A stretch of DNA of 35,191 nt from Candidatus Aquidulcis sp. (GCA_020723345.1 DYJA01000030.1:28543-63733); one strand, 5' to 3'. Numbered from the stretch's first letter, positions 10,965-33,663 are shown. Numbers and translations are program-made. Notes: a model not told the origin generated them from the sequence alone.

Positions 10965-11450
10965 CTATTCGTTGGCTTGGCGTAAAACCGAATCAACCAC
11001 GTCTTGACTGATGCTGAATCCCTGTTGTCGCAGTTGCTCAATGTCAGGACGGATTGCCGCTAGAAGACCTGTCCGTTTCGCTTTGAGCAAAATGCCGAGC
11101 GTCCCAATCTTCTTCAATTTCAGTTCGGCAAGTTTGCGGCGTCCCCTTTTTTCATCCATCAGCACCCAGTCCGCGCCGATTTCGCGCGCCAATACAATTG
11201 TTTCAGCTTCGCCCAAGTCCATTTCATCCAGCAGGACATCAACTGCCAAGCGGTCTTGGACGCGAACAGTCTTTATCCACGTTGCAGCGGATACCTCGCG
11301 TTTTGCGCCGCCTTCTTCGCGCCCTCGTGCTACGGCTTCATCGTACACCGCTTGCGCGATTTGGATTTCGCCAAAGAGGTGCTTGAGCAGATCGAAGCGT
11401 TGAATTGTTGCGAGTCCAATCAAGGGCGTGGTGTTCGAGACAACAATCAT
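10965..11450 (-). CDS. DUF3368 PIN-like toxin of a TA module
   Basis: Protein of 161 aa. The N-terminus IVVSNTTPLIGLATI, the central LGEAETIVLAREIGADWVLMDEKRGR and the C-terminal helices match DUF3368, the PIN-like RNase toxin partner of UPF0175 antitoxins. Acidic residues E and D of the PIN core are visible (GEAET, LMDE), but the first position is Asn (VSNTT) rather than Asp. Its ATG overlaps the last 4 nt of the antitoxin gene (11447-11450), so the pair is translationally coupled. Confidence 0.85.
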   Translation of the reverse strand: MIVVSNTTPLIGLATIQRFDLLKHLFGEIQIAQAVYDEAVARGREEGGAKREVSAATWIKTVRVQDRLAVDVLLDEMDLGEAETIVLAREIGADWVLMDEKRGRRKLAELKLKKIGTLGILLKAKRTGLLAAIRPDIEQLRQQGFSISQDVVDSVLRQANE

Positions 11451-11728
11451 CGGTTGGGCTTGACCTCCAATTTTTCGACTGCCTCAAACTCTTCGTCGAG
11501 TTCTTCGGGAGTGTAGTTAATGTAAGCGATGCCGCGCGCACGAAGCAAAGCCAAGAACTCGACGCGAGTGATGTTCAACAGACGCGCCGCCTTGCCCGAA
11601 GAAACATGCCCTTCAGTGAACAGCGTCAAGACCAGCCACTCAACAAGGCGACGTTGTACCGCGTTTTGGTCAAAGCCATATTGAAGGAGCGGTGCGGGGA
11701 TGCGAACTTGAAATGTTGTTTCAGTCAT
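11447..11728 (-). CDS. UPF0175 family antitoxin
   Basis: Protein of 93 aa from the ATG at 11728, with AGGAGG 7 nt upstream; the frame runs further upstream without another ribosome site. The core LVEWLVLTLFTEGHVSSGKA-ARLLNITRVEFLALL-RARGIAYINYTPEELDEE is characteristic of UPF0175, a winged-helix-like DNA-binding antitoxin. It precedes and overlaps its DUF3368 toxin by 4 nt. A promoter with 17-bp spacing lies just upstream, where autoregulation would be expected. Confidence 0.87.
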   Translation of the reverse strand: MTETTFQVRIPAPLLQYGFDQNAVQRRLVEWLVLTLFTEGHVSSGKAARLLNITRVEFLALLRARGIAYINYTPEELDEEFEAVEKLEVKPNR

Positions 11729-11763
11729 CCAATTTCCTCCTGTGACACAATCGTCTGAAACCG

Positions 11764-11859: not shown

Positions 11860-12056
11860 TCACACAAATTTCGCCGCGAGAATCCGCGCAACCTCTTCCA
11901 GAAATCTGCGATCTTGCGCGGTGAACGCGGCAGGCACGTCGCTGTCAATGTCAATCTCGCCAAAGACGCGCGCGCCGCGCATAATCGGCACGACGATTTC
12001 GCTGCGCGTTTGCAAACTGCACGCGATATATTCCACGTCCGCGTTCACTTCGTCTA
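11860..12056 (-). pseudogene. Truncated copy of the GAF/fRMsr-like gene
   Basis: The 62-codon open stretch reads NADVEYIACSLQTRSEIVV through to FLEEVARILAAKFV and is nearly identical, in protein and DNA, to the C-terminal 40% of the complete GAF gene at 12601-13071. The similarity stops abruptly near 12055, where the toxin end of the next TA module begins. The first ~90 residues of the domain are missing, including the GICG region, so it is almost certainly non-functional. Confidence 0.85.
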
Positions 12057-12068
12057 CTCCGAACTACG

Positions 12069-12338
12069 TTACAAACGAGAAATCAATTTCTCATAATCCG
12101 CATGCGCGCCGATCCAAAACCAAACCACCACATCTCCATCGCGAGTTCCAACAGCGCGATAATCCAAATTGATTCGCGCTGAGTAAATTGGTCTGGTCGG
12201 ATGTATTTGCTTGAAATGCAAACTTGGGTGATACGGATTTTGTTTGAAAAATCTGTACGCCTGGCGGGCTTGACGCTGGACATGTTGCGGCAACTGCTCC
12301 AACGCTTTGCGAAAATGCTCGGTGGTATGCGAGGTCAT
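12069..12338 (-). CDS. RelE/ParE-family toxin
   Basis: Protein of 89 aa. FRKALEQLPQHVQRQARQAY, then FFKQNPYHPSLHFKQI, then YSARINLDYRAVGTRDGDVVVWFWIGAHADYEKL follow the compact RelE/ParE fold of ribosome-dependent mRNA interferases or gyrase poisons. The C-terminal HADYEKLI end is typical of this toxin group. The start codon overlaps the stop of the upstream antitoxin by 4 nt. It lies between a truncated and a complete copy of the GAF gene. Confidence 0.85.
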   Translation of the reverse strand: MTSHTTEHFRKALEQLPQHVQRQARQAYRFFKQNPYHPSLHFKQIHPTRPIYSARINLDYRAVGTRDGDVVVWFWIGAHADYEKLISRL

Positions 12339-12553
12339 AACTTGTCTGGGTCAAGCACCTGAGTTCGTCCAGCCCGAAATTCCGCCAGCGCTTCATCCGC
12401 CAATTGCTCAAGCGCGTGAGGCGACTTGGCAAAGAGTTCATCCCATCGTCGTTCCGAAGCAAGTTCTTCAAGTATCCAAGTGGCGACTGTATCTTGTTCT
12501 TGCTGAGGCAATTTGGACGCCTCGACGAATGCCCTCTCTAAAAGTTTTGTCAT
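12335..12553 (-). CDS. Antitoxin partner of the RelE/ParE toxin
   Basis: Protein of 72 aa from the ATG at 12553; AAGGAG lies 7 nt upstream. It is an acidic helical protein, LLERAFVEASKLPQQEQDTV followed by ATWILEELASERRWDELFAKS, ending in a segment that should wrap the toxin. This pattern is common among small antitoxins paired with RelE/ParE toxins. It overlaps the toxin by 4 nt. A TATAAT -10 box (minus strand, 12575-12580) precedes it, without a good -35. Confidence 0.8.
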   Translation of the reverse strand: MTKLLERAFVEASKLPQQEQDTVATWILEELASERRWDELFAKSPHALEQLADEALAEFRAGRTQVLDPDKL

Positions 12554-12600
12554 CGCGACGCTCCTTTCGCTTCGATTATACACGAAATTGCGCCGACGCG

Positions 12601-13071
12601 CTATTCTGTATCGCCCGCGAATCTCGCCGCGAGCAACCGCGCAACCTCTTCCAAGAATTTGCGATCGCGCGCGGTGAACGCGGCGGGCACGTCGCTGTCA
12701 ATGTCAATTTCGCCGAGGACGCGCGCGTCGCGCATAATCGGCACGACGATTTCGCTGCGCGTCTGCAAACTGCACGCGATATATGCCGCGTCCGCGTTCA
12801 CGTCGCCCACGACGACGGTTTCCTTCACGCGCGCGGCGCGCCCGCAAATCCCCGCGCCAATCGGGATGCGCGTGTGTTCGGTCGGTCGTCCGCGATACGG
12901 ACCCAGCACGAGCGTTTCGCCTTCAAGCAGATAGACGTAGACACCTGTGTAATGCGGAAAATTTTCGTGCAGCGCGGCGGTAGTTTTATCGAGCAACGTC
13001 GCGAGCGGCTCGCCCATTGATTTGTTGAGCAAGTCTATCGTTACGCGTTCGCGTGACGTACGATCATCCAT
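12601..13071 (-). CDS. GAF domain protein, free methionine-(R)-sulfoxide reductase-like
   Basis: Protein of 156 aa comprising a single GAF domain. RIPIGAGICG (C76), then YIACSLQTRSEIVVPI (C100) and GEIDIDS follow the fRMsr (YebR/MsrC) family, which reduces free methionine-R-sulfoxide. C76 and C100 align with Cys94 and Cys118 of the E. coli enzyme, while the position of Cys84 (KIACVRI) is occupied by TEHTRI here, so one of the three redox cysteines is lost. The enzyme could still use two cysteines, or act as a plain GAF sensor. AGGA precedes the ATG. A truncated second copy lies at 11860-12056. Confidence 0.8.
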   Translation of the reverse strand: MDDRTSRERVTIDLLNKSMGEPLATLLDKTTAALHENFPHYTGVYVYLLEGETLVLGPYRGRPTEHTRIPIGAGICGRAARVKETVVVGDVNADAAYIACSLQTRSEIVVPIMRDARVLGEIDIDSDVPAAFTARDRKFLEEVARLLAARFAGDTE

Positions 13072-16151: not shown

Positions 16152-17273
16152 TTATTTCGTCGGCGTTGGCGTTCGCGCCGCTTCTCTGGTGTGCGCTAAG
16201 AGAAAGCGGAATGCTTCGTGCTTCATCTCTGGCGTAGTCTCATGCGCCAGGCCGGGATATTGTTTGAATTGGCTGTTGACGCCAACGGAAACAAGAAACT
16301 GGTGCAGTGCCTTCATTCGCTTGGGATTTGTGTCTCCAAGATTCTCTCGAACGAATACTTTTTCTGGCTCGGTAAAAATGTCGTTGAAAGCAAGCGGGTC
16401 GTTTTCGCGACGCGTATCATTCTCGCCTACAACGATCATGTTCGGAATCTTTTTGAACGTTTCCAGATCGAATGGTTTGCCCGCCAGAGTTTCGAGATCC
16501 CGAATCCCCAATGGATAGTCCAGCGGTTGTCCATTCAATTCCGCGACTGGGAGCGGCGCAGGCGTAAATGCGCCCAACCACATGGCGCGCACCTTTTCCG
16601 GATTCATGATCGCAAATCGGTAGGAGAATGTCGCCGGAACCGAAAACCCAAACAAGAGAACGCGTTCGTCCACATCCAGACCAGCCCCGCGCAGTGAAGG
16701 GAGATATTGATTCCACACCGCGTCGCTGAATTTGAGATCGGGGCGTCGGTGAAACTCGATGCTGGTAGTGAATGTCCCTAGATGGAGTGAATTGATATAG
16801 AGTTCCCTGGTTCTCGGCATCGCCACGCTCAAGATCGGCACGCCATAGGTTTCGGCATAGGTCCGCAACCCGCTGAGGTTTCTTTCAGTACTGGCTTCGT
16901 GCACCGCATAGTCGTTGGATGAACTGCTTGTGCCATTGGGCCAAATGCAAACGGTGATCATTTGTTTTCCGATTGCGCTTTTCGGAAAATAGGAAAACCA
17001 CGTGTACGATTTTTCGTTCGGGAATGGATGTTTGACTATTTCGCCCGATTTCAATATTTCCAACACTTGCGCCGATATTGTCGGCGTAGCAGTTGCCGTA
17101 CTGGTTGGTGTGCGCGTCGCGGTTGCGATGGGCGTTGCAGTATTTGTCGGCAACGCGGTCAAAGTAGGCGATGGCAGCGCGGTCGGTGCGACTGTTGCAA
17201 TTGGCGCGGCTGTTGGCGCGCACGCAGCCAATAGGAGCAACATTGCAATCGAAACAGCGCCGCCGATTCTCAT
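16152..17273 (-). CDS. Lipoprotein with alpha/beta-hydrolase-like domain, inserted in the nuo operon
   Basis: Protein of 373 aa. The N-terminus [18 protein letters not shown] has a clear lipobox (LAAC) with lipid-attachment Cys at 18, then a long Thr/Pro/Ala linker to about residue 75. The folded part shows [15 protein letters not shown], a G-x-S-x-P nucleophile-elbow-like motif, then [17 protein letters not shown] (candidate acid) and a late LAHETTPE (candidate His), suggesting a PHB-depolymerase/esterase-like hydrolase on the outer face of the membrane. The assignment is moderate and the substrate unknown. The ATG is 4 nt after the nuoL stop and GAGGA overlaps that stop, so it is translationally coupled to nuoL. 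It is not a known complex I subunit. Confidence 0.75.
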
Positions 17274-17277
17274 TTGG

Positions 17278-19206
17278 TCATCCTCGAAAGATCAACCACC
17301 CCAGCACGATCACCGTGCCGATCAACATCATCAGCGCGTACGCGCGTGCGTATCCGTTCTGCCAGCCGCGCATGATCCGACTGAGCGACGCCGTCGCGCG
17401 CCCCAGTCCGTTTGCGAAACCGTCAATGATTTTTACGTCGACGATTTGCCACAAGAACATCGCAAGGCGATAGCCCTTGTCGACAAAGAGCCAACTGTAG
17501 AATTCGTCAATCCAATATTTGTGCCACAGCAAATTGTAAATGCCGCTGAATCGCCGCGCGAGCGTCACGGGAATCGTCGGTCGCGCGAGGTAGAACCAGT
17601 ACGCGACGCCGATACCGAGCAAGCCCGCGGCAACTGACGCGCCGATCAGCATCCACTCGGTTGACGCGGCGAGATGCAAATCATGCGGCTTGAAGACCGG
17701 CTCGAAATACCCTTCGAGGAAATTCGCGCCGATCACTTTGGGCATTCCGACGAAACCGCCGAACACCGACAGGATCGCGAGAATCGCGAGCGGAATCGTC
17801 ATCACGGCAGGGGATTCGTGGGGACCATGCCACGCGCCGTGCGAGTCGTGTTGCGTGTTGCGTGTTCCATTCTCCCATCGCGGTTCCGTGTGAAACGTCA
17901 AGAAGAACGCGCGGAAAATGTAGAACGCAGTGAGTCCCGCGGTGATCAAGCCAATCGCCCAGATCGCGGTGTGACCGGTCGCGAACGCGCTCGCGAGAAT
18001 TTCGTCTTTGCTGAAGAAACCCGCGAAGAATGGAAAGCCCGCAATCGCGAGCGCGGCGGCGAGGAATGTGATGTACGTGCGCGGCATTTTCGCGCGCAAG
18101 CCGCCGAGTTGCCGCATGTCGACGATGCCGTTCATCGCGTGCATCACGCTGCCCGCGCCGAGGAAGAGGAGCGCTTTGAAGAACGCGTGCGTCATCAAAT
18201 GGAAAATGCCCGCGCCGTACGCGCCGATGCCGACGGCGACGAACATATAGCCGAGTTGCGAAATCGTCGAGTACGCGAGGACGCGCTTCAAGTCCATCTG
18301 CACGAGCGCGATCGTCGCGGTGTAAATCGCGGTGAGCGCGCCTGTCCACGCGATGACATTCGACGCGAGCGGCGACAGTTCGAACAAGGCGTGGGAGCGC
18401 GCGACCATATAAACGCCCGCGGTCACCATCGTCGCGGCGTGAATGAGCGCGCTGACGGGCGTGGGACCTTCCATCGCGTCGGGCAGCCAGACGTAGAGCG
18501 GAATCTGCGCAGACTTGCCGACCGCGCCGGCGAACAAAAGCAGAGTGATGACAGTAATCACCGTTTGGTTGACTGCTTCCGCGTGCGCGAACACATCGGC
18601 GAAGTTGAGCGTGCCGAAAGTCGTGAAGATGAGGAGCACACCGAGTCCGAAACCGAAATCGCCGACGCGTGTCGTGATGAATGCTTTTTTGCCCGCCGAT
18701 GCCGCTTCGGGTTTGTGGAACCAGAACGAGATCAGCAAGTACGAGCACAAGCCGACGAGTTCCCATCCGACGTACATCAGCAAATAGTTGCTGCCGAGCA
18801 CGAGCATCAGCATCGAGAACACGAAAAGGTTGAGGTACGTGAAGAATCGTCCGTAACCCTCGTCGTGTTCCATATAGCCGATGGAATAGACGTGGATGAG
18901 AAAGCCGACGCCGGTGACGACGAGCAGCATCAGCGCGGAAAGCGGATCGAGCAAGAACGCGACGTCAATCCGAAAATCGGAAACAGGTATCCAGGTAAAC
19001 AAGGATACGTTGATGACGCGATGCGCTTCGTCCGCGTATTGCATCACGCAGAACGCGAGCAGCGACACGACAAACGACGCGCCAACCGCGCCGCATGCGA
19101 TTACGCTGACGAGCCAGCGCGGCATGCGAAGCATGCGCGAAAAGATTGCATTGATTGTTGCGCCCGCGAGGGGAAGCGCAGGGACGAGCCAGAGATAGTT
19201 GATCAA
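17278..19206 (-). CDS. nuoL: NADH-quinone oxidoreductase subunit L
   Basis: Protein of 642 aa with a TTG start at 19206 and AAGGAA about 8 nt upstream; a duplicated 5' copy at 20053-20169 also uses TTG. It is the largest antiporter-like subunit of complex I, with the long lateral helix at the C-terminus. E149 in YVGWELVGLCSYLLISFW and K231 in GAVGKSAQIPLYVWLPDAMEGPTPVSALIHAATMV are conserved. A hydrophilic loop after PRWENGTRNTQHDSHG is encoded partly by the 18-nt word CGTGTTGCGTGTTGCGTG (17847-17864), which is otherwise intergenic in this operon. Confidence 0.96.
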   Translation of the reverse strand: MINYLWLVPALPLAGATINAIFSRMLRMPRWLVSVIACGAVGASFVVSLLAFCVMQYADEAHRVINVSLFTWIPVSDFRIDVAFLLDPLSALMLLVVTGVGFLIHVYSIGYMEHDEGYGRFFTYLNLFVFSMLMLVLGSNYLLMYVGWELVGLCSYLLISFWFHKPEAASAGKKAFITTRVGDFGFGLGVLLIFTTFGTLNFADVFAHAEAVNQTVITVITLLLFAGAVGKSAQIPLYVWLPDAMEGPTPVSALIHAATMVTAGVYMVARSHALFELSPLASNVIAWTGALTAIYTATIALVQMDLKRVLAYSTISQLGYMFVAVGIGAYGAGIFHLMTHAFFKALLFLGAGSVMHAMNGIVDMRQLGGLRAKMPRTYITFLAAALAIAGFPFFAGFFSKDEILASAFATGHTAIWAIGLITAGLTAFYIFRAFFLTFHTEPRWENGTRNTQHDSHGAWHGPHESPAVMTIPLAILAILSVFGGFVGMPKVIGANFLEGYFEPVFKPHDLHLAASTEWMLIGASVAAGLLGIGVAYWFYLARPTIPVTLARRFSGIYNLLWHKYWIDEFYSWLFVDKGYRLAMFLWQIVDVKIIDGFANGLGRATASLSRIMRGWQNGYARAYALMMLIGTVIVLGWLIFRG

Positions 19207-19266
19207 GTTAATAATTCCTTGGCAAAAGTATCATGTTGCCGATTTTAAGACTTGCGCGCAAACTTT

Positions 19267-20028
19267 TTATGGCTTGCTCTGCTTCTCTAGTATGCAGTAC
19301 AGATTGTGGGAAAAGTACTCTGTCAAGAACGGAACCTGACTGATCAAGGAGAACAGCCGTGACACTGGGCGTTTGCTGGCGTTGACCTGTAGGAAGATTA
19401 TCGCCATTCCACAAGAGCGAAAGAGACGTAGATACTCAGCCAAGGGTAAAGCGTTCAATCCTAAATCATGGATCGAGGTGACCTTTTGAGAATCAAATCG
19501 ATTATGCCAGTTGACCAGGAAGCGCTCGGGGAAGAGCGCATGTCCCCACGGTCGAAGCATCCTAGTCCGCCCGTGATCCCCAAAGGGACTGTTCCATAGA
19601 GGACCAAAGCCAGCATAGACCCGACCACCCACCTTGAGACGCTTTTTCATCTCTGCCAAGACCTGCTCTAAACCAATGACATGTTCAAAAGTGTCCTTCG
19701 AGACAAAGTAGTCGATGTCCGATTCCGGTGCTTCACTCAAGTTCTGAAAACGAAATTCAATCGTATCCGCGAATTGAGGATAATTACGCCTTAGATTCTC
19801 GTTGGCAAAGTCAATTAGGCGCATGTTCAAATCGAGTCCAATAACCCGTCTAGCCCCTGACAGAGCAATATCGACGCAGAGACTGCCGTGCCCACAGCCC
19901 AAGTCGATGACCACCGCGTCTTTGAAATTGGGTTTCCCCCCGAGGCGTCCCCAATAGCGCGGGTTCTCAACCTGACCGAGGTTGAAGTAGTCAATGTCAT
20001 CTTGTTGCAGCATCAGCATTGCGCACAT
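19267..20028 (-). CDS. Class I SAM-dependent methyltransferase, inserted upstream of nuoL
   Basis: Protein of 253 aa. Motif I VIDLGCGHGSLCVDIAL, the acidic end of strand 2 GLDLNMRLIDFA, and YFVSKDTFEHVIGLEQVLAE-MKKRLKVGGRVY show a Methyltransf_11/UbiE-like fold. The C-terminal ~90 residues (FPERFLVNWHNRF.. onward) resemble methyltransferases of polysaccharide or lipid clusters, which fits the glycosyltransferase nearby; the substrate is not known. The start is uncertain among closely spaced ATGs, with no good ribosome site. Base composition is visibly lower in GC than nuoL. It lies between nuoL and a duplicated nuoL 5' stub, so it arrived with or after that duplication. Confidence 0.82.
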   Translation of the reverse strand: MCAMLMLQQDDIDYFNLGQVENPRYWGRLGGKPNFKDAVVIDLGCGHGSLCVDIALSGARRVIGLDLNMRLIDFANENLRRNYPQFADTIEFRFQNLSEAPESDIDYFVSKDTFEHVIGLEQVLAEMKKRLKVGGRVYAGFGPLWNSPFGDHGRTRMLRPWGHALFPERFLVNWHNRFDSQKVTSIHDLGLNALPLAEYLRLFRSCGMAIIFLQVNASKRPVSRLFSLISQVPFLTEYFSHNLYCILEKQSKP

Positions 20029-20052
20029 TGCAATCTCGAACTTTCAATCTTG

Positions 20053-20169
20053 TCAATTCTCTTTGATAATGACGAGCCAGCGCGGCACGCGGAGCGTCCG
20101 CGAAAAGATTGCGTTAATTGTTGCGCCCGCGAGTGGGAGCGCAGGGATGAGCCAGAGATAGGTGAGCAA
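20053..20169 (-). pseudogene. Duplicated 5' stub of nuoL (38 codons)
   Basis: TTG at 20169 opens MLTYLWLIPALPLAGATINA, then IFSRTLRVPRWLV, and ends at once in IIKEN and a stop. It matches the first ~33 residues of nuoL with a few conservative changes. DNA similarity runs from the ribosome site (AAGGAA) across about 115 bp (20070-20184 against 19109-19224) with roughly a dozen mismatches. It is therefore an old duplication that left a truncated copy in the position nuoL would normally hold downstream of nuoK. Confidence 0.85.
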
Positions 20170-20210
20170 GTTAGTAGTTCCTTGATGATTTAATTGGGCG
20201 GTATTGAGAG

Positions 20211-20262
20211 TTTTGTGTAAATTCCCAAAATCCACGCTTGGCGGAAACACATTTACACAAAA
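20211..20262. repeat. Foldback TTTTGTGTAAAT / ATTTACACAAAA
   Basis: TTTTGTGTAAAT (20211-20222) and its exact reverse complement (20251-20262) are 28 nt apart. It lies upstream of the nuoL stub and downstream of the CorA-topology gene. It may be a terminator-like structure. The rest of the 20170-20331 gap shows no gene. Confidence 0.6.
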
Positions 20263-20331
20263 TTCGGCGAACCGCCTTTAATTGCGATAATACCAGGATG
20301 GATTTGGGAGTACGTCTTGACCGTCGTCAGA

Positions 20332-22002
20332 CTATTCGACTGTGCTTCCCATCACCTTTTGCAAATCTTGGATTTTCTTTTCTACCATTAGGCTCGGTGG
20401 GGGTGATTTGGTTCCGCGCAAGAACAGCACCCTCAGAATCACCATGATTATGCCAAATATCAATCCATTCAGCCCAACCCAATACCATGGGTAGACTTGG
20501 GAGAATAAAGGATAGGCTCTAAACTCACTGGTTAGTAACGGCGAAAGCACCTCGGTTAATCCAAAAGCAGCAGTTGCCGAAACCACAATGTTGATTACTG
20601 CCAGGGCATTGCTTTGTCGTTCATTTGTCAGGCTTAGACTATGTATCCCTCTTAGGATATCTATTTCTTGCTCATTTTGCTGTTGCTGCCTTATTCGATC
20701 TTGGATAATAACAGCTTGGTCTATCTCATCGTCCAAACGTCTTGCTTTCGCTTCTACCAACTCAGTCGCAGGACGATATTTCAGGCCTGGATTTCCAAGT
20801 AGCCGCCGATAGAGGGGCTCAAGCTGTGCCCCATGGAAAAGGTTGAAAAAATCAAAAGTTCGGATTGAGCGCGTTATTCTCCTCCGCTGCTCAATGATCC
20901 GGATAATTGCTTTCGGGTCATTAGCTGCTCCGGAGGAGATTTCCTCAAGCATTTTTTCTAGCTCACCATCGAATGCATGCACCAGTGCAGTTTGCAGATT
21001 AAGAAGCTCGAAAATTCGTACGATTTCTATATCGACGAGACCATATTTGTCGATCCGATTAGTGCCACTTTCTCCCAAGATGAAGTCAGCAGCCTGGTTA
21101 ATGTGGATAGCATGATTTGGCCAAACGAATAAAGCACGAGACTCTCTTCTCTCTTCGTTATCCAATTGCACCACTTTGTCACTCAAGTCTCTATCCCGAC
21201 CATCAGTGAATAGCCAGGATATCTCCTGTGCATGCTCCCTACAGAACGAGTGCCAATCAAAATTAGAGCGATCTAGGCCATCTATACCCCATATATTTAG
21301 AATCGGACCAAAGCTAGTTGGAAAGAGCGAGTGGCTTCTTTGTGAATTGTGAAGATCGCGCAAATATTTGCAACCAATAGGATCTTCCTCGTGACACATC
21401 AGGACGTACCACTCTTGATCTACAGATTGTGGATCGTATTCGGTCCCTAACGCTTGCCCAAGTGATCTATGTATCTGTATGAAATAGTAATTCATTACCT
21501 CGCGCAAATAGAGAAAGGTGACTTGATCTTCGGACGGAAGACAGACCTTAAGATGTACAGGTTGTCCAGATCCATCTTTTGCGAGTAACCACTGACGCGT
21601 AAGGAACGTGATCTCTTCCATAGAAAAAGCATCATCTCCTTGGGCATTAGGCTGAGACATACAGAGATTGAATACACCGAACCCGCTTCCTCCATCTATC
21701 AATAGGTTTACCCTAATGGGTGTAGTTAACTCACGTTCAGTTCCAACTTTTTGAGTCACCAATTCAAATGGTTGTAAATGGACGCGCACCAATTTGGTGC
21801 TATCCAAGAAGCGTACATCAAACAAGTCGAGATCAATTTCATCAACCTCATCCGGCTTACCAACACGAGCAAGGTCTTTCACAAGCGAATGCTTTCTCAG
21901 ATTAGGTAGGGCGGATTCTAAAGCATCTTGTTCCAAGCCAAAATCATAAGCACGCAACCAACAAATGGAAAATGCAGAAACGCGCAAGGTGAAGGGCTTC
22001 AT
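20332..22002 (-). CDS. Unknown membrane protein with CorA-like topology
   Basis: Protein of 556 aa with GGAGGAGG just before its ATG. A large soluble N-terminal region (about residues 1-440) has mixed alpha/beta character, followed by a Gln/Glu-rich coiled-coil segment (QDRIRQQQQNEQEIDILRGI) and two C-terminal helices (LAVINIVVSATAAFGLTEVL and WVGLNGLIFGIIMVILRVLF). A big cytoplasmic domain, long helix and two terminal membrane helices is the topology of CorA-type metal channels, but the diagnostic GMN motif is absent, so a transport role is not supported. I do not recognise the family. GC content is distinctly lower than the nuo genes, pointing to horizontal acquisition. Confidence 0.7.
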   Translation of the reverse strand: MKPFTLRVSAFSICWLRAYDFGLEQDALESALPNLRKHSLVKDLARVGKPDEVDEIDLDLFDVRFLDSTKLVRVHLQPFELVTQKVGTERELTTPIRVNLLIDGGSGFGVFNLCMSQPNAQGDDAFSMEEITFLTRQWLLAKDGSGQPVHLKVCLPSEDQVTFLYLREVMNYYFIQIHRSLGQALGTEYDPQSVDQEWYVLMCHEEDPIGCKYLRDLHNSQRSHSLFPTSFGPILNIWGIDGLDRSNFDWHSFCREHAQEISWLFTDGRDRDLSDKVVQLDNEERRESRALFVWPNHAIHINQAADFILGESGTNRIDKYGLVDIEIVRIFELLNLQTALVHAFDGELEKMLEEISSGAANDPKAIIRIIEQRRRITRSIRTFDFFNLFHGAQLEPLYRRLLGNPGLKYRPATELVEAKARRLDDEIDQAVIIQDRIRQQQQNEQEIDILRGIHSLSLTNERQSNALAVINIVVSATAAFGLTEVLSPLLTSEFRAYPLFSQVYPWYWVGLNGLIFGIIMVILRVLFLRGTKSPPPSLMVEKKIQDLQKVMGSTVE

Positions 22003-22123
22003 ATAGGACCTCCTCCGAGAATTTTCTGTGCGAACTGGCTTAGTTTATCCGGCAAGTGACAATTTCTCCGACTGTACTTTTTGACGAAGCGCTGCAACAG
22101 TTCAAAACGACTCTATTCGGTCT

Positions 22124-23362
22124 TCACCTTTGTCCCATTTCCACCAGCGGCTTAATTGTTTCCGCAAAGATCCGTTCCCATGTGTACTTCCGCAACAAAC
22201 GCCGCTTCAATTGATAGCGTGCGTCTTGCGCGAAGAACCGTGTGATGCGGTCTGAAATCACTGCCGGTGACTCATCGAGTGAAAAATAATGTGCCCACTT
22301 ACCTGCTGATTCTCGAAAAGGAGGAATATCCGAACAGAAGACTGGAAGGCGTGTAACTCCCGCTTCCAAAATCGGTATGCCAAAACCTTCACGTACGCTT
22401 GTGAACAATAGGGCATCAGCAAGGAGATATAGATCGCGTCGTACTTCATCGTTCACGAAACCATATTCTAGGAGAAAGGTGATTGCATCGTCTACACCTC
22501 GCTCGTGCCGCAACCTGTACAATTCATCCAAATACGAAGTATTCGCAGGGTTGTGCGGGCCCAGTGGTCCCATTACAATCAACCGGGGCATGTACCCACG
22601 GTTACGTAGCGCAGCGATGATTTCAATCGCCAATTCGATGTTCTTACGTCTTGTGACGCGTATAGGCATCAGAAATAACGGCATGGCACCAAGCAAATTC
22701 ATCTCGCTAACCCACTGCGCTGTCGTCTGCGTGACGCCCAAAAATTCACATGTATCTATACCCACCGGCACAACTGCTATGTCAGCTTCAGAGATTTCCA
22801 ACAGATGTGCGAGTTCCTTACGCCGTGCCTCGGAAATGACAACATATTTCACACCTATCCATGCTTTTCTTAAGAGATCCCAAGGTGCTCCTGTATGCAT
22901 TTCTTTTTCGTAAACAGGATCGCTCCAAGCGAAATCGTGACACCACCCGATTAAGGATACGCGCTGCGTCTGTACGATTTCATGCAACGCGTTTGTCAGG
23001 GCAAGATTCTTGTGAAGTGTTAAAACATTGTGTGCGATGCACACATCCACATCTGCCAGTGCGCTTTCGAGGCAGTCACGCACAGTAGCGGTGAGCGAGC
23101 AAAAGTTGCTGGAGATGATTCCCATCGCCAATTCGTGAGTAACTTCGGTAACATAGGGATGCGTTGAATCTACTGCCGGAATGATCTGCACAGGCACACG
23201 CGCGTCGAATTGATCACCTCGCCCTGCGATAATCTTCACAGGATAATCGTGATCTGTGAACAATCGCGCATGTGTGGCAATCGTGGATTCGACGCCGCCA
23301 ATGGTCGGCGGTGCGGCGTAGTGCAAGAGTGCTAGGCGCGGCCTTTCGCGGTTTATCATCAT
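22124..23362 (-). CDS. Glycosyltransferase family 4-like protein
   Basis: Protein of 412 aa from the ATG at 23362, with GGAGAG 6 nt upstream; the frame is open 21 codons further but without a ribosome site. The GT-B architecture is visible: the N-terminal GGVESTIATHARLF loop, then PVGIDTCEF between the domains, PIRVTRRKNIELAIE (the Arg/Lys phosphate-binding pair), and the C-terminal EGFGIPILEAG with the E-x7-E-type retaining motif. Such enzymes transfer a sugar from a nucleotide donor to lipids, polysaccharide or protein. It lies in the nuoK-nuoL insertion on the same strand and has lower GC than the neighbouring complex I genes. Confidence 0.87.
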   Translation of the reverse strand: MMINRERPRLALLHYAAPPTIGGVESTIATHARLFTDHDYPVKIIAGRGDQFDARVPVQIIPAVDSTHPYVTEVTHELAMGIISSNFCSLTATVRDCLESALADVDVCIAHNVLTLHKNLALTNALHEIVQTQRVSLIGWCHDFAWSDPVYEKEMHTGAPWDLLRKAWIGVKYVVISEARRKELAHLLEISEADIAVVPVGIDTCEFLGVTQTTAQWVSEMNLLGAMPLFLMPIRVTRRKNIELAIEIIAALRNRGYMPRLIVMGPLGPHNPANTSYLDELYRLRHERGVDDAITFLLEYGFVNDEVRRDLYLLADALLFTSVREGFGIPILEAGVTRLPVFCSDIPPFRESAGKWAHYFSLDESPAVISDRITRFFAQDARYQLKRRLLRKYTWERIFAETIKPLVEMGQR

Positions 23363-23425
23363 TTCTCTCCTGCCATGCATTGGAAACATAGCATATAGAC
23401 CACGAACTTGTCGCCGGGCAGCCAC

Positions 23426-23651
23426 GTTATGATGCCGCTCTTCACCTTTGACCCTAGGTCAGATCGGTCCGACTGCAATCTACCCGATAACAAGCATAAC
23501 GCCAATACTCCCTTCGCGGAAATGAATTCTGTTCTCACTCGCGGGTCCACATCTCGGCCGGCCCGGATTGCCAAATCAACGGCTATCGATCTCAAAACCT
23601 GCTTCGTGGGCTTGCCGCGCGCCAGTCCCGGAATTTTATCCGAGAGCGTCT
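23426..23651. other. Gap without a confident gene
   Basis: 226 bp between the glycosyltransferase and the V4R gene. A minus-strand frame stays open from just after the V4R stop (reading GVKTLSDKIPGLARGKPTKQ.. to about 23359) and overlaps the glycosyltransferase start, but it has no start codon with a ribosome site. It could be decayed coding DNA at the left boundary of the insertion. No other signal seen. Confidence 0.4.
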
Positions 23652-24269
23652 TTACGCCTCCAACGCCACCCTAAACTTGCACAACTCGTCGCCCTTCGCG
23701 CGGCATGAAATTTCCTGCACCTGGAAATCGTCGCCGTCGAGCGCCCACGCGACGATGCCGTGAATGAAACCTGCGACCGCGTGACACACGGACGCGTCGT
23801 GCGTCCAGCCCTTGCAATACGCGCAATTCCACGCCTCGTAGTAAAAGTACTGCGCGTCCTCGGAGATCGTCACGTGCGTATTGAGTTGCTCGTTGACTGC
23901 TTTTGCCGCCGTGTCGAGCGCGAACTTGACCTTGTGTCGCCGCGAGAAAAATTTTGCCGCCAACTTCGCCGCATTCGCGAGCGCGGCGTTTGCTTCCAGT
24001 CCGAATTTCGCTTGCCCGCGCCCGACGCGCTGCATGATCGCGCGTGAGCCGCGCGCGCCGTAAATGTCGAACAACGCGCGATTGACTTTTCCAATGTCGC
24101 TCAACCTTTGTCCGTTGCGTTCGGTATCGTTGGGCGGATAATTGTTAATGAACTGCGCCAAGCCCCCTTGCTGCAAAATGGTCGCCAGGCCTTGTGCGCC
24201 TACAACATCTTCAACCCCGAGTAAAATCGCGCGGAATGCTTTGTTGGCTACGAGCGAATCTTGATCCAC
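23652..24269 (-). CDS. V4R (4-vinyl-reductase-like) domain protein, coupled to nuoK
   Basis: Protein of 205 aa starting at a GTG 3 nt after the nuoK TAG, in the same reading frame as nuoK; AAGGG lies 8 nt upstream inside nuoK. The N-terminal ~110 residues are helical. The C-terminal part (about 112-205) has the V4R pattern YYEAWNCAYCKGW..VCHAVAGFIHGIV..ISCRAKGDELCKF. Cysteines 149, 152, 162, 189 and 197 could bind metal. V4R domains occur in BchJ-like proteins and in sensors that bind small hydrophobic molecules; none is an established complex I subunit. Tight linkage suggests co-expression with complex I. Confidence 0.8.
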   Translation of the reverse strand: MDQDSLVANKAFRAILLGVEDVVGAQGLATILQQGGLAQFINNYPPNDTERNGQRLSDIGKVNRALFDIYGARGSRAIMQRVGRGQAKFGLEANAALANAAKLAAKFFSRRHKVKFALDTAAKAVNEQLNTHVTISEDAQYFYYEAWNCAYCKGWTHDASVCHAVAGFIHGIVAWALDGDDFQVQEISCRAKGDELCKFRVALEA

Positions 24270-24272
24270 GAA

Positions 24273-24578
24273 CTAACCCTTCAGCGTATTTGCTTCGTCG
24301 ACGTTGACGGTTTGCCGCGTGCGGAACAACGCGACGATGATCGCGAGTCCGACCGCGACTTCGGCGGCGGCAACAGTGAGAATCAGAAACACGAACACCT
24401 GACCGTCGATGCTTTGCAGATAGCGCGAAAAGCCGACGAACGCGAGATTCACCGCGTTCAGCATCAACTCGATGCTCATAAACATGATCAGCGGATTGCG
24501 CCGCATCAGCACGCCGACCGCGCCGATGCTGAAAAGAATCGCGCTGAGGATGATGTAGTGATTTACGGTTAGCATCAT
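24273..24578 (-). CDS. nuoK: NADH-quinone oxidoreductase subunit K
   Basis: Protein of 101 aa with three transmembrane helices, the usual size of NuoK. The essential buried glutamates are present: E37 in [14 protein letters not shown] and E73 in [11 protein letters not shown]. It stops with TAG, and the V4R gene follows in the same frame after one sense codon. The gap to nuoJ contains a foldback of TTCAGTATTCAGCG words. Confidence 0.96.

Positions 24579-31443: not shown

Positions 31444-33663
<2,220 letters not shown>

Follow-up and report, generated by a model that had tools for sequence, protein, structure and literature searches.

We find that the junction between nuoK and nuoL, two subunit genes of the complex I operon, is occupied by additional genes in 10 of 12 informative genomes of one bacterial family but in only 2 of 25 outgroup genomes (Fisher test, p=1e-5). 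As read from the gene content, this junction is a recurrent landing site for foreign cassettes, mostly toxin–antitoxin and defence-like genes. We consider it fairly probable that small non-autonomous cassettes were inserted serially at this slot with long duplication of the target.

The genome under study (G000) comprises 6.34 Mb in 132 contigs, and the locus is situated inside contig C38 (63.7 kb). We analyzed a stretch of 35,191 nucleotides, here called the window, and positions are counted from its first letter unless stated otherwise. From its relatives and gene set the host family looks like a group of uncultured, Chloroflexota-like bacteria. The minus strand carries the complex I operon, with the gene order nuoA, nuoE, nuoH, nuoJ, nuoK, V4R, GT4, 556-aa protein, methyltransferase, nuoL, hydrolase-like gene, nuoM, nuoN. 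The features at the junction are:

24273..24578, minus strand: nuoK, upstream border of the junction (Pfam Oxidored_q2 5.6e-31, NCBIfam NuoK)
23652..24269, minus strand: V4R-domain gene (Pfam V4R 3e-10)
22124..23425, minus strand: GT4 glycosyltransferase (Glycos_transf_1 5e-18)
20332..22002, minus strand: 556-aa protein with hydrophobic C-terminal part (no Pfam, NCBIfam or PADLOC match)
20070..20184, minus strand: partial copy of the nuoL 5' end with ribosome-binding site, TTG and ~33 codons (88.7% over 115 bp to 19107-19221)
19267..20028, minus strand: class I SAM methyltransferase, bracketed by the two nuoL 5' ends (Methyltransf_31 1.6e-14)
17278..19206, minus strand: nuoL, intact, TTG start (NCBIfam NuoL 5.5e-232)

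The inserted genes face the direction of the operon and may, as predicted from this orientation, be expressed with it; strand and spacing make cotranscription with nuo plausible. Between nuoL and nuoM lies a hydrolase-like gene with a lower GC3 (16152-17273, 0.58), and relatives have other short inserts at that place. Long tandem repeats are also present in the window, with ~61-bp units at 1-1034 and, within the gene of a surface-type protein of 739 aa (32425-33146), units of 78 bp.

Self-comparison of the window gave a 115-bp ungapped block in which 20184-20070 and 19221-19107 differ at 13 positions (88.7% identity, E=1.6e-36). The second repeat copy (19107-19221) consists of the first 100 bp of nuoL and 15 bp upstream. 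As a control, shuffled nuoL starts matched the window at E<1e-3 in 1 of 200 trials, and a whole-genome search found no nuoL-start sequence in G000 besides nuoL itself and the copy. The repeat pair brackets 849 bp which contain the methyltransferase gene alone. Thus the copied nuoL start with ribosome site, TTG codon and about a dozen differences, which a preliminary description of this DNA had reported, is borne out. The description let the copy extend from 20053 to 20184; the upper end holds, but the repeat stops at 20070, and at position 20053 lies the stop codon which ends the 38-codon frame opened by the copied TTG. Copy and nuoL differ by six synonymous and six replacement codons in 34 codons. 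A functional mini-protein made from the copied start is unlikely in view of this ratio and since the first copy in the relative G003 is frameshifted and the copies in G004 have no usable start. Just upstream of the copy, between it and the 556-aa gene, there is an inverted repeat of 26 nt (77%) at 20197-20276.

The junction in related genomes

The family set comprises 14 genomes, 12 of which are informative for the junction, and the outgroup consists of 25 class-level genomes with nuoK in reach. Each species is represented by one genome, and insertions are compared between species, not strains. G006, where the junction is split between contigs, and G001, where nuoK is off the contig, were counted as filled since V4R or other inserts border the gene. 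A NuoL scan of a wider contig set yielded distant relatives only and was left out.

A comparison of the junction in related genomes had been proposed as a check of the preliminary description, and it does reveal an uninterrupted arrangement: nuoK and nuoL are 3 nt apart in G013 and ~41 nt apart in G009, and the gap is at most 260 bp in 23 of the 25 outgroup genomes. The occupied junctions differ in content. G001 and G004 carry DUF4160/DUF2442, and G002 carries DUF2283 and a small partner. G003 has RelE-type pairs together with a TIR-like protein, G007 a NucS-like nuclease (PADLOC PDC-S11, 4e-35), G008 a nucleotidyltransferase, G010 another TIR-like protein and G011 genes of no known type. Profile searches confirmed V4R, GT4, methyltransferase, DUF4160, DUF2283 and ParE, while the small genes called RelBE-like, VapC-like, DUF4258-like and DUF2442 were named from reading the sequence alone.

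Fragments of the nuoL start are also present upstream of nuoL in relatives, one in G001 and two each in G003 and G004, and each is followed by a cassette. All fragments which retain the upstream part start at -13 to -17, the point at which the present cassette begins, and all fragments end at +67 to +102; the duplicates of the nuoL start are 75-115 bases long. The second fragment and its antitoxin are common to G003 and G004, as are remnants of the first cassette. The fragment–cassette arrays are therefore inherited and are not assembly errors. This bears on the suspicion of an assembly or binning artefact at the repeat. The assembly is fragmented (132 contigs), but the junction lies inside a contig of 63.7 kb, the two copies differ by 13 bases and equivalent structures occur in independent genomes. 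Misassembly had been named beforehand as one of the findings that would overturn the preliminary description; the relatives with similar nuoL fragments argue against it, and we regard an artefact as extremely improbable.

The first copy of G003 and both copies of G004 are closest, or equally close, to nuoL or the copies of their own genome (78-83%). A hairpin version which is 6 nt longer (at about +66 to +90) is common to the copies of G000, G001 and G003 and absent from most nuoL genes, although it is found in altered form in nuoL of G000. The sequence GCACGCTCCGCGTGC occurs once in G001 and once in G003, both times within nuoL copies only. We discarded a dispersed hairpin repeat, as among six genomes the exact 15-mer is restricted to these nuoL copies. 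The mosaic of the fragments suggests conversion among copies or an old shared copy. With 11% divergence and a shared hairpin, either the duplication is old or the copies exchanged sequence. It may be that the present methyltransferase gene is not the cassette that made the duplication.

Duplicated gene ends at other sites

The same architecture is seen elsewhere. Within the window, a toxin–antitoxin pair lies between two 3' ends of a GAF-like gene:

12601..13071, minus strand: GAF-like gene (gaf, a working label from the sequence), whose 3' part 12620-12805 is the source of the copy
12069..12583, minus strand: RelBE-like toxin–antitoxin pair between both gaf 3' ends (named from position and sequence reading)
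11867..12052, minus strand: partial gaf 3' copy (186 bp, 90.9%, E=1.2e-69)

A UPF0175/DUF3368-like toxin–antitoxin pair (10965-11752) follows directly after the gaf 3' copy.

The genome has a second complex I operon on contig C25 (locus L086), which carries duplications at nuoK2 and nuoL2. A 91 bp copy of the nuoK2 5' end (93%) stands before a DUF4258/DUF2283-like pair (L086 14104-14190/14800-14890), and a 127 bp copy of the nuoL2 3' end (93%) after a VapC-like gene (L086 17266-17392/18187-18313). On contig C60, a 5' copy of a hydrolase gene (133 bp, 80%) precedes a ParE-type pair, and in G012 a DUF4160/DUF2442 pair has a copied peptidase 5' end at its flank. All relatives checked have the nuoK2, nuoL2 and gaf ends in single copy, and fragments of these ends occur in one genome only.

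We then asked how often toxin loci are bracketed in this way. The DUF4160 and ParE loci of the 14 genomes add up to 60, and 10 of these have bracketing direct repeats compared with 3 of 240 random windows (p=9e-6), all random windows being from G000, which limits the control. When the three nuoL cases and a single pair of tandem paralogues are set aside, the count is 6 of 56 (p=0.002). At 50 of the 60 loci there is no bracketing repeat. The within-genome rate is based on ~420 kb of G000 and the 60 toxin loci. A direct-repeat screen of two class-level genomes also found pairs, including intergenic ones and others within long paralogous genes, and gives no clean background rate. At one of the bracketed loci, of ParE type (L223, G013:C175), the repeat of 82 bp (98%) reads like a tRNA 3' end, and this case may represent site-specific integration.

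Proposed mode of insertion

The architecture and its recurrence, the relatives with an uninterrupted junction and the single-copy ends of nuoK2, nuoL2 and gaf in relatives are what a mechanism has to accommodate. We suggest that the insertion proceeds as follows. A cassette without a recombinase of its own, usually a toxin–antitoxin-like pair and here the methyltransferase gene, would enter the chromosome. The target, here nuoL from -15 to about +100, would be duplicated and one copy would come to lie on each side of the cassette. As the duplicated block extends past the end of the gene, the copy on the gene side would be whole, with ribosome-binding site, start codon and full frame, and the copy away from the gene would decay as a fragment. 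The insertion would be harmless because the block at the gene end is present twice and one copy is still attached to a complete gene. Cassettes could thereby settle within an operon of core genes and leave these genes unbroken. In G000 the V4R gene would have come first, the GT4 and 556-aa genes would have been added without a visible scar and the methyltransferase gene is bracketed by the duplication. Points against this account are the lack of a flanking repeat at the GT4 and 556-aa genes and at most toxin loci, and the 11% divergence of the copies with their shared hairpin. Insertion and duplication would be one event, and the joining could proceed via staggered breaks with fill-in or via homology-assisted illegitimate recombination of the incoming DNA. 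The repeats may later recombine with each other, so that the copies are converted or the cassette is lost. None of the 14 family genomes matched Ku (PF02735), whereas Bacillus subtilis, used as control, does. Ku-dependent end joining is therefore unlikely. ComEC is present in 12 of the 14 genomes, which makes DNA uptake possible.

Another explanation is that the cassette itself carries a piece of nuoL and enters each host at nuoL by homologous recombination, either by a single crossover of a tagged circle or, after transformation, by a double crossover with the incoming DNA of a relative. The fragment would then mark the homology used, and fragment and nuoL would form a slot with swappable contents. 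The longer hairpin, which the copies of G000, G001 and G003 have in common and most nuoL genes lack, would agree with such a travelling tag. The same holds for the gene after the copy, which is the methyltransferase in G000 and DUF4160/DUF2442 in G001, and for ComEC in 12 of the 14 genomes. ComEC is however common and not diagnostic. Moreover, the affinity of the first G003 copy and both G004 copies to sequences of their own genome argues against the tag, and the nuoK2, nuoL2 and gaf fragments are each confined to one genome, unlike one spreading tag. We regard this explanation as rather unlikely, and still less credit is due to the idea that the start of nuoL was duplicated in tandem long ago, unrelated to gene gain, and that cassettes later filled a non-essential spacer. 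The 11% divergence and the shared hairpin do point to an old copy, and an insertion into the stretch that separates the copy from nuoL would do no harm. But at nuoK2, nuoL2 and gaf the duplication is never seen without a cassette in the relatives checked, and wherever we read the sequence closely the fragments directly abut the cassette. Similarly improbable, in our view, is a dedicated, unrecognised activity acting in trans which inserts short toxin–antitoxin or defence cassettes at gene ends with target duplications of 70-190 bp and has the nuoK–nuoL junction as a standing slot. In the frames read at the inspected junctions we noticed no recombinase among the inserted genes.

The preferred mechanism, serial insertion with target duplication, resembles several known systems. 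Integrative islands of the tRNA, guaA and dusA type regenerate a gene end, and here too insertion is at a gene end and leaves the gene complete; the present repeats, however, are longer and site-dependent, and no integrase was seen in the inserts. As with integron gene cassettes, small genes are captured serially at a single site and in one orientation, yet what is repeated here is part of the adjacent gene instead of attC, and among the insert frames read no integrase was noticed. Defence and toxin–antitoxin hotspots hold different defence-like genes at one locus in different relatives. The cargo of the junction likewise differs between relatives, but this slot lies within a respiratory-chain operon between two subunit genes.

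The closest match is the insertion with long target duplication which is described for restriction–modification genes in Helicobacter (Nobusato et al. 2000, Gene 259:99, as cited in PMC1643837 and PMC3031569). Both patterns combine a gene cassette that lacks a transposase with flanking direct repeats of the target, which are long and variable, and with cargo of the addiction type. Flanking direct repeats derived from the target are found here at nuoL (115 bp), gaf (186 bp), nuoK2 (91 bp) and nuoL2 (127 bp), and relatives without the insert exist for nuoK2, nuoL2 and gaf, which are single-copy there, and for nuoK–nuoL in G013 and G009. Restriction–modification cargo is true of the first examples but not defining; in our case the cargo is mostly toxin–antitoxin-like pairs and one lone methyltransferase. 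Further, the first examples were found by comparing strains of Helicobacter, whereas we compare Chloroflexota-like species in which one start of a core-operon gene is used repeatedly. We found no literature account of the pattern in Chloroflexota or in complex I operons, which is weak evidence as most subscription papers are outside our coverage. Thus the pattern of long target duplication is known, and what is new is that a single slot in a core operon has been used repeatedly and that the cargo is toxin–antitoxin-like.

These observations bear on how toxin–antitoxin and defence genes move without transposases. The family offers insertions of differing age with the target visible on both sides, together with relatives in which the site is empty. 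Foreign genes are tolerated, and have arrived repeatedly, even within an operon that encodes core complex I subunits, because duplication of the target would leave the subunit gene whole.

Origin of the inserted genes

The preliminary description had regarded the extra genes as mostly lower in GC. This applies to GT4 (GC3 0.50), the 556-aa gene (0.43) and the methyltransferase (0.58), which look foreign by composition next to nuoH/J/K/L/M/N (0.72-0.80), but not to V4R (0.72). It had further proposed insertion into an uninterrupted nuoK–nuoL with duplication of the nuoL start, which stands, and a single island acquired in one event, which does not: the repeat brackets the methyltransferase alone, V4R is older and the gene content is different in every relative. 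Nor is there a conserved trio which would support the suggested functional unit of sugar transfer, methylation and membrane protein. The three genes have separate distributions. A search of 301 genomes of the phylum at 1e-20 gave no homologue of the methyltransferase, a search of 400 gave a single one of the 556-aa protein (50%, in G296), and the GT4 family is widespread elsewhere, being present in 66 of 301 genomes; a GT4 paralogue (66% identical) is located on contig C9 of G000. G296 has homologues of both GT4 and the 556-aa protein, which lie ~5.5 kb apart in a cluster with a GH13-like phosphorylase (named by sequence reading), and these two genes might have a common origin. As to the CorA topology ascribed to the 556-aa protein, neither Pfam nor PDB gave a sequence match, and the structure model is unusable (pLDDT 36). 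The methyltransferase is a lone SAM enzyme with no restriction partner.

Judged by codon use and position, V4R has been at the junction for longer, since seven family genomes, G000 included, have V4R in the same place after nuoK and its codon use is host-like. The orthologue of G002 is at the equivalent position and 80% identical, and homologues in G003, G004, G006, G007 and G008 are 42-53% identical. Two or three tandem paralogues are found in G002, G003, G004 and G008. The genes fall into two old paralogous lineages, which are often arranged in tandem; both occur in G002, a member of the same genus, and one in G000. Distant V4R homologues had no nuo neighbour within the 1.5 kb inspected. The V4R genes after nuoK, up to three in tandem, have conserved cysteines, and a role together with complex I is possible.
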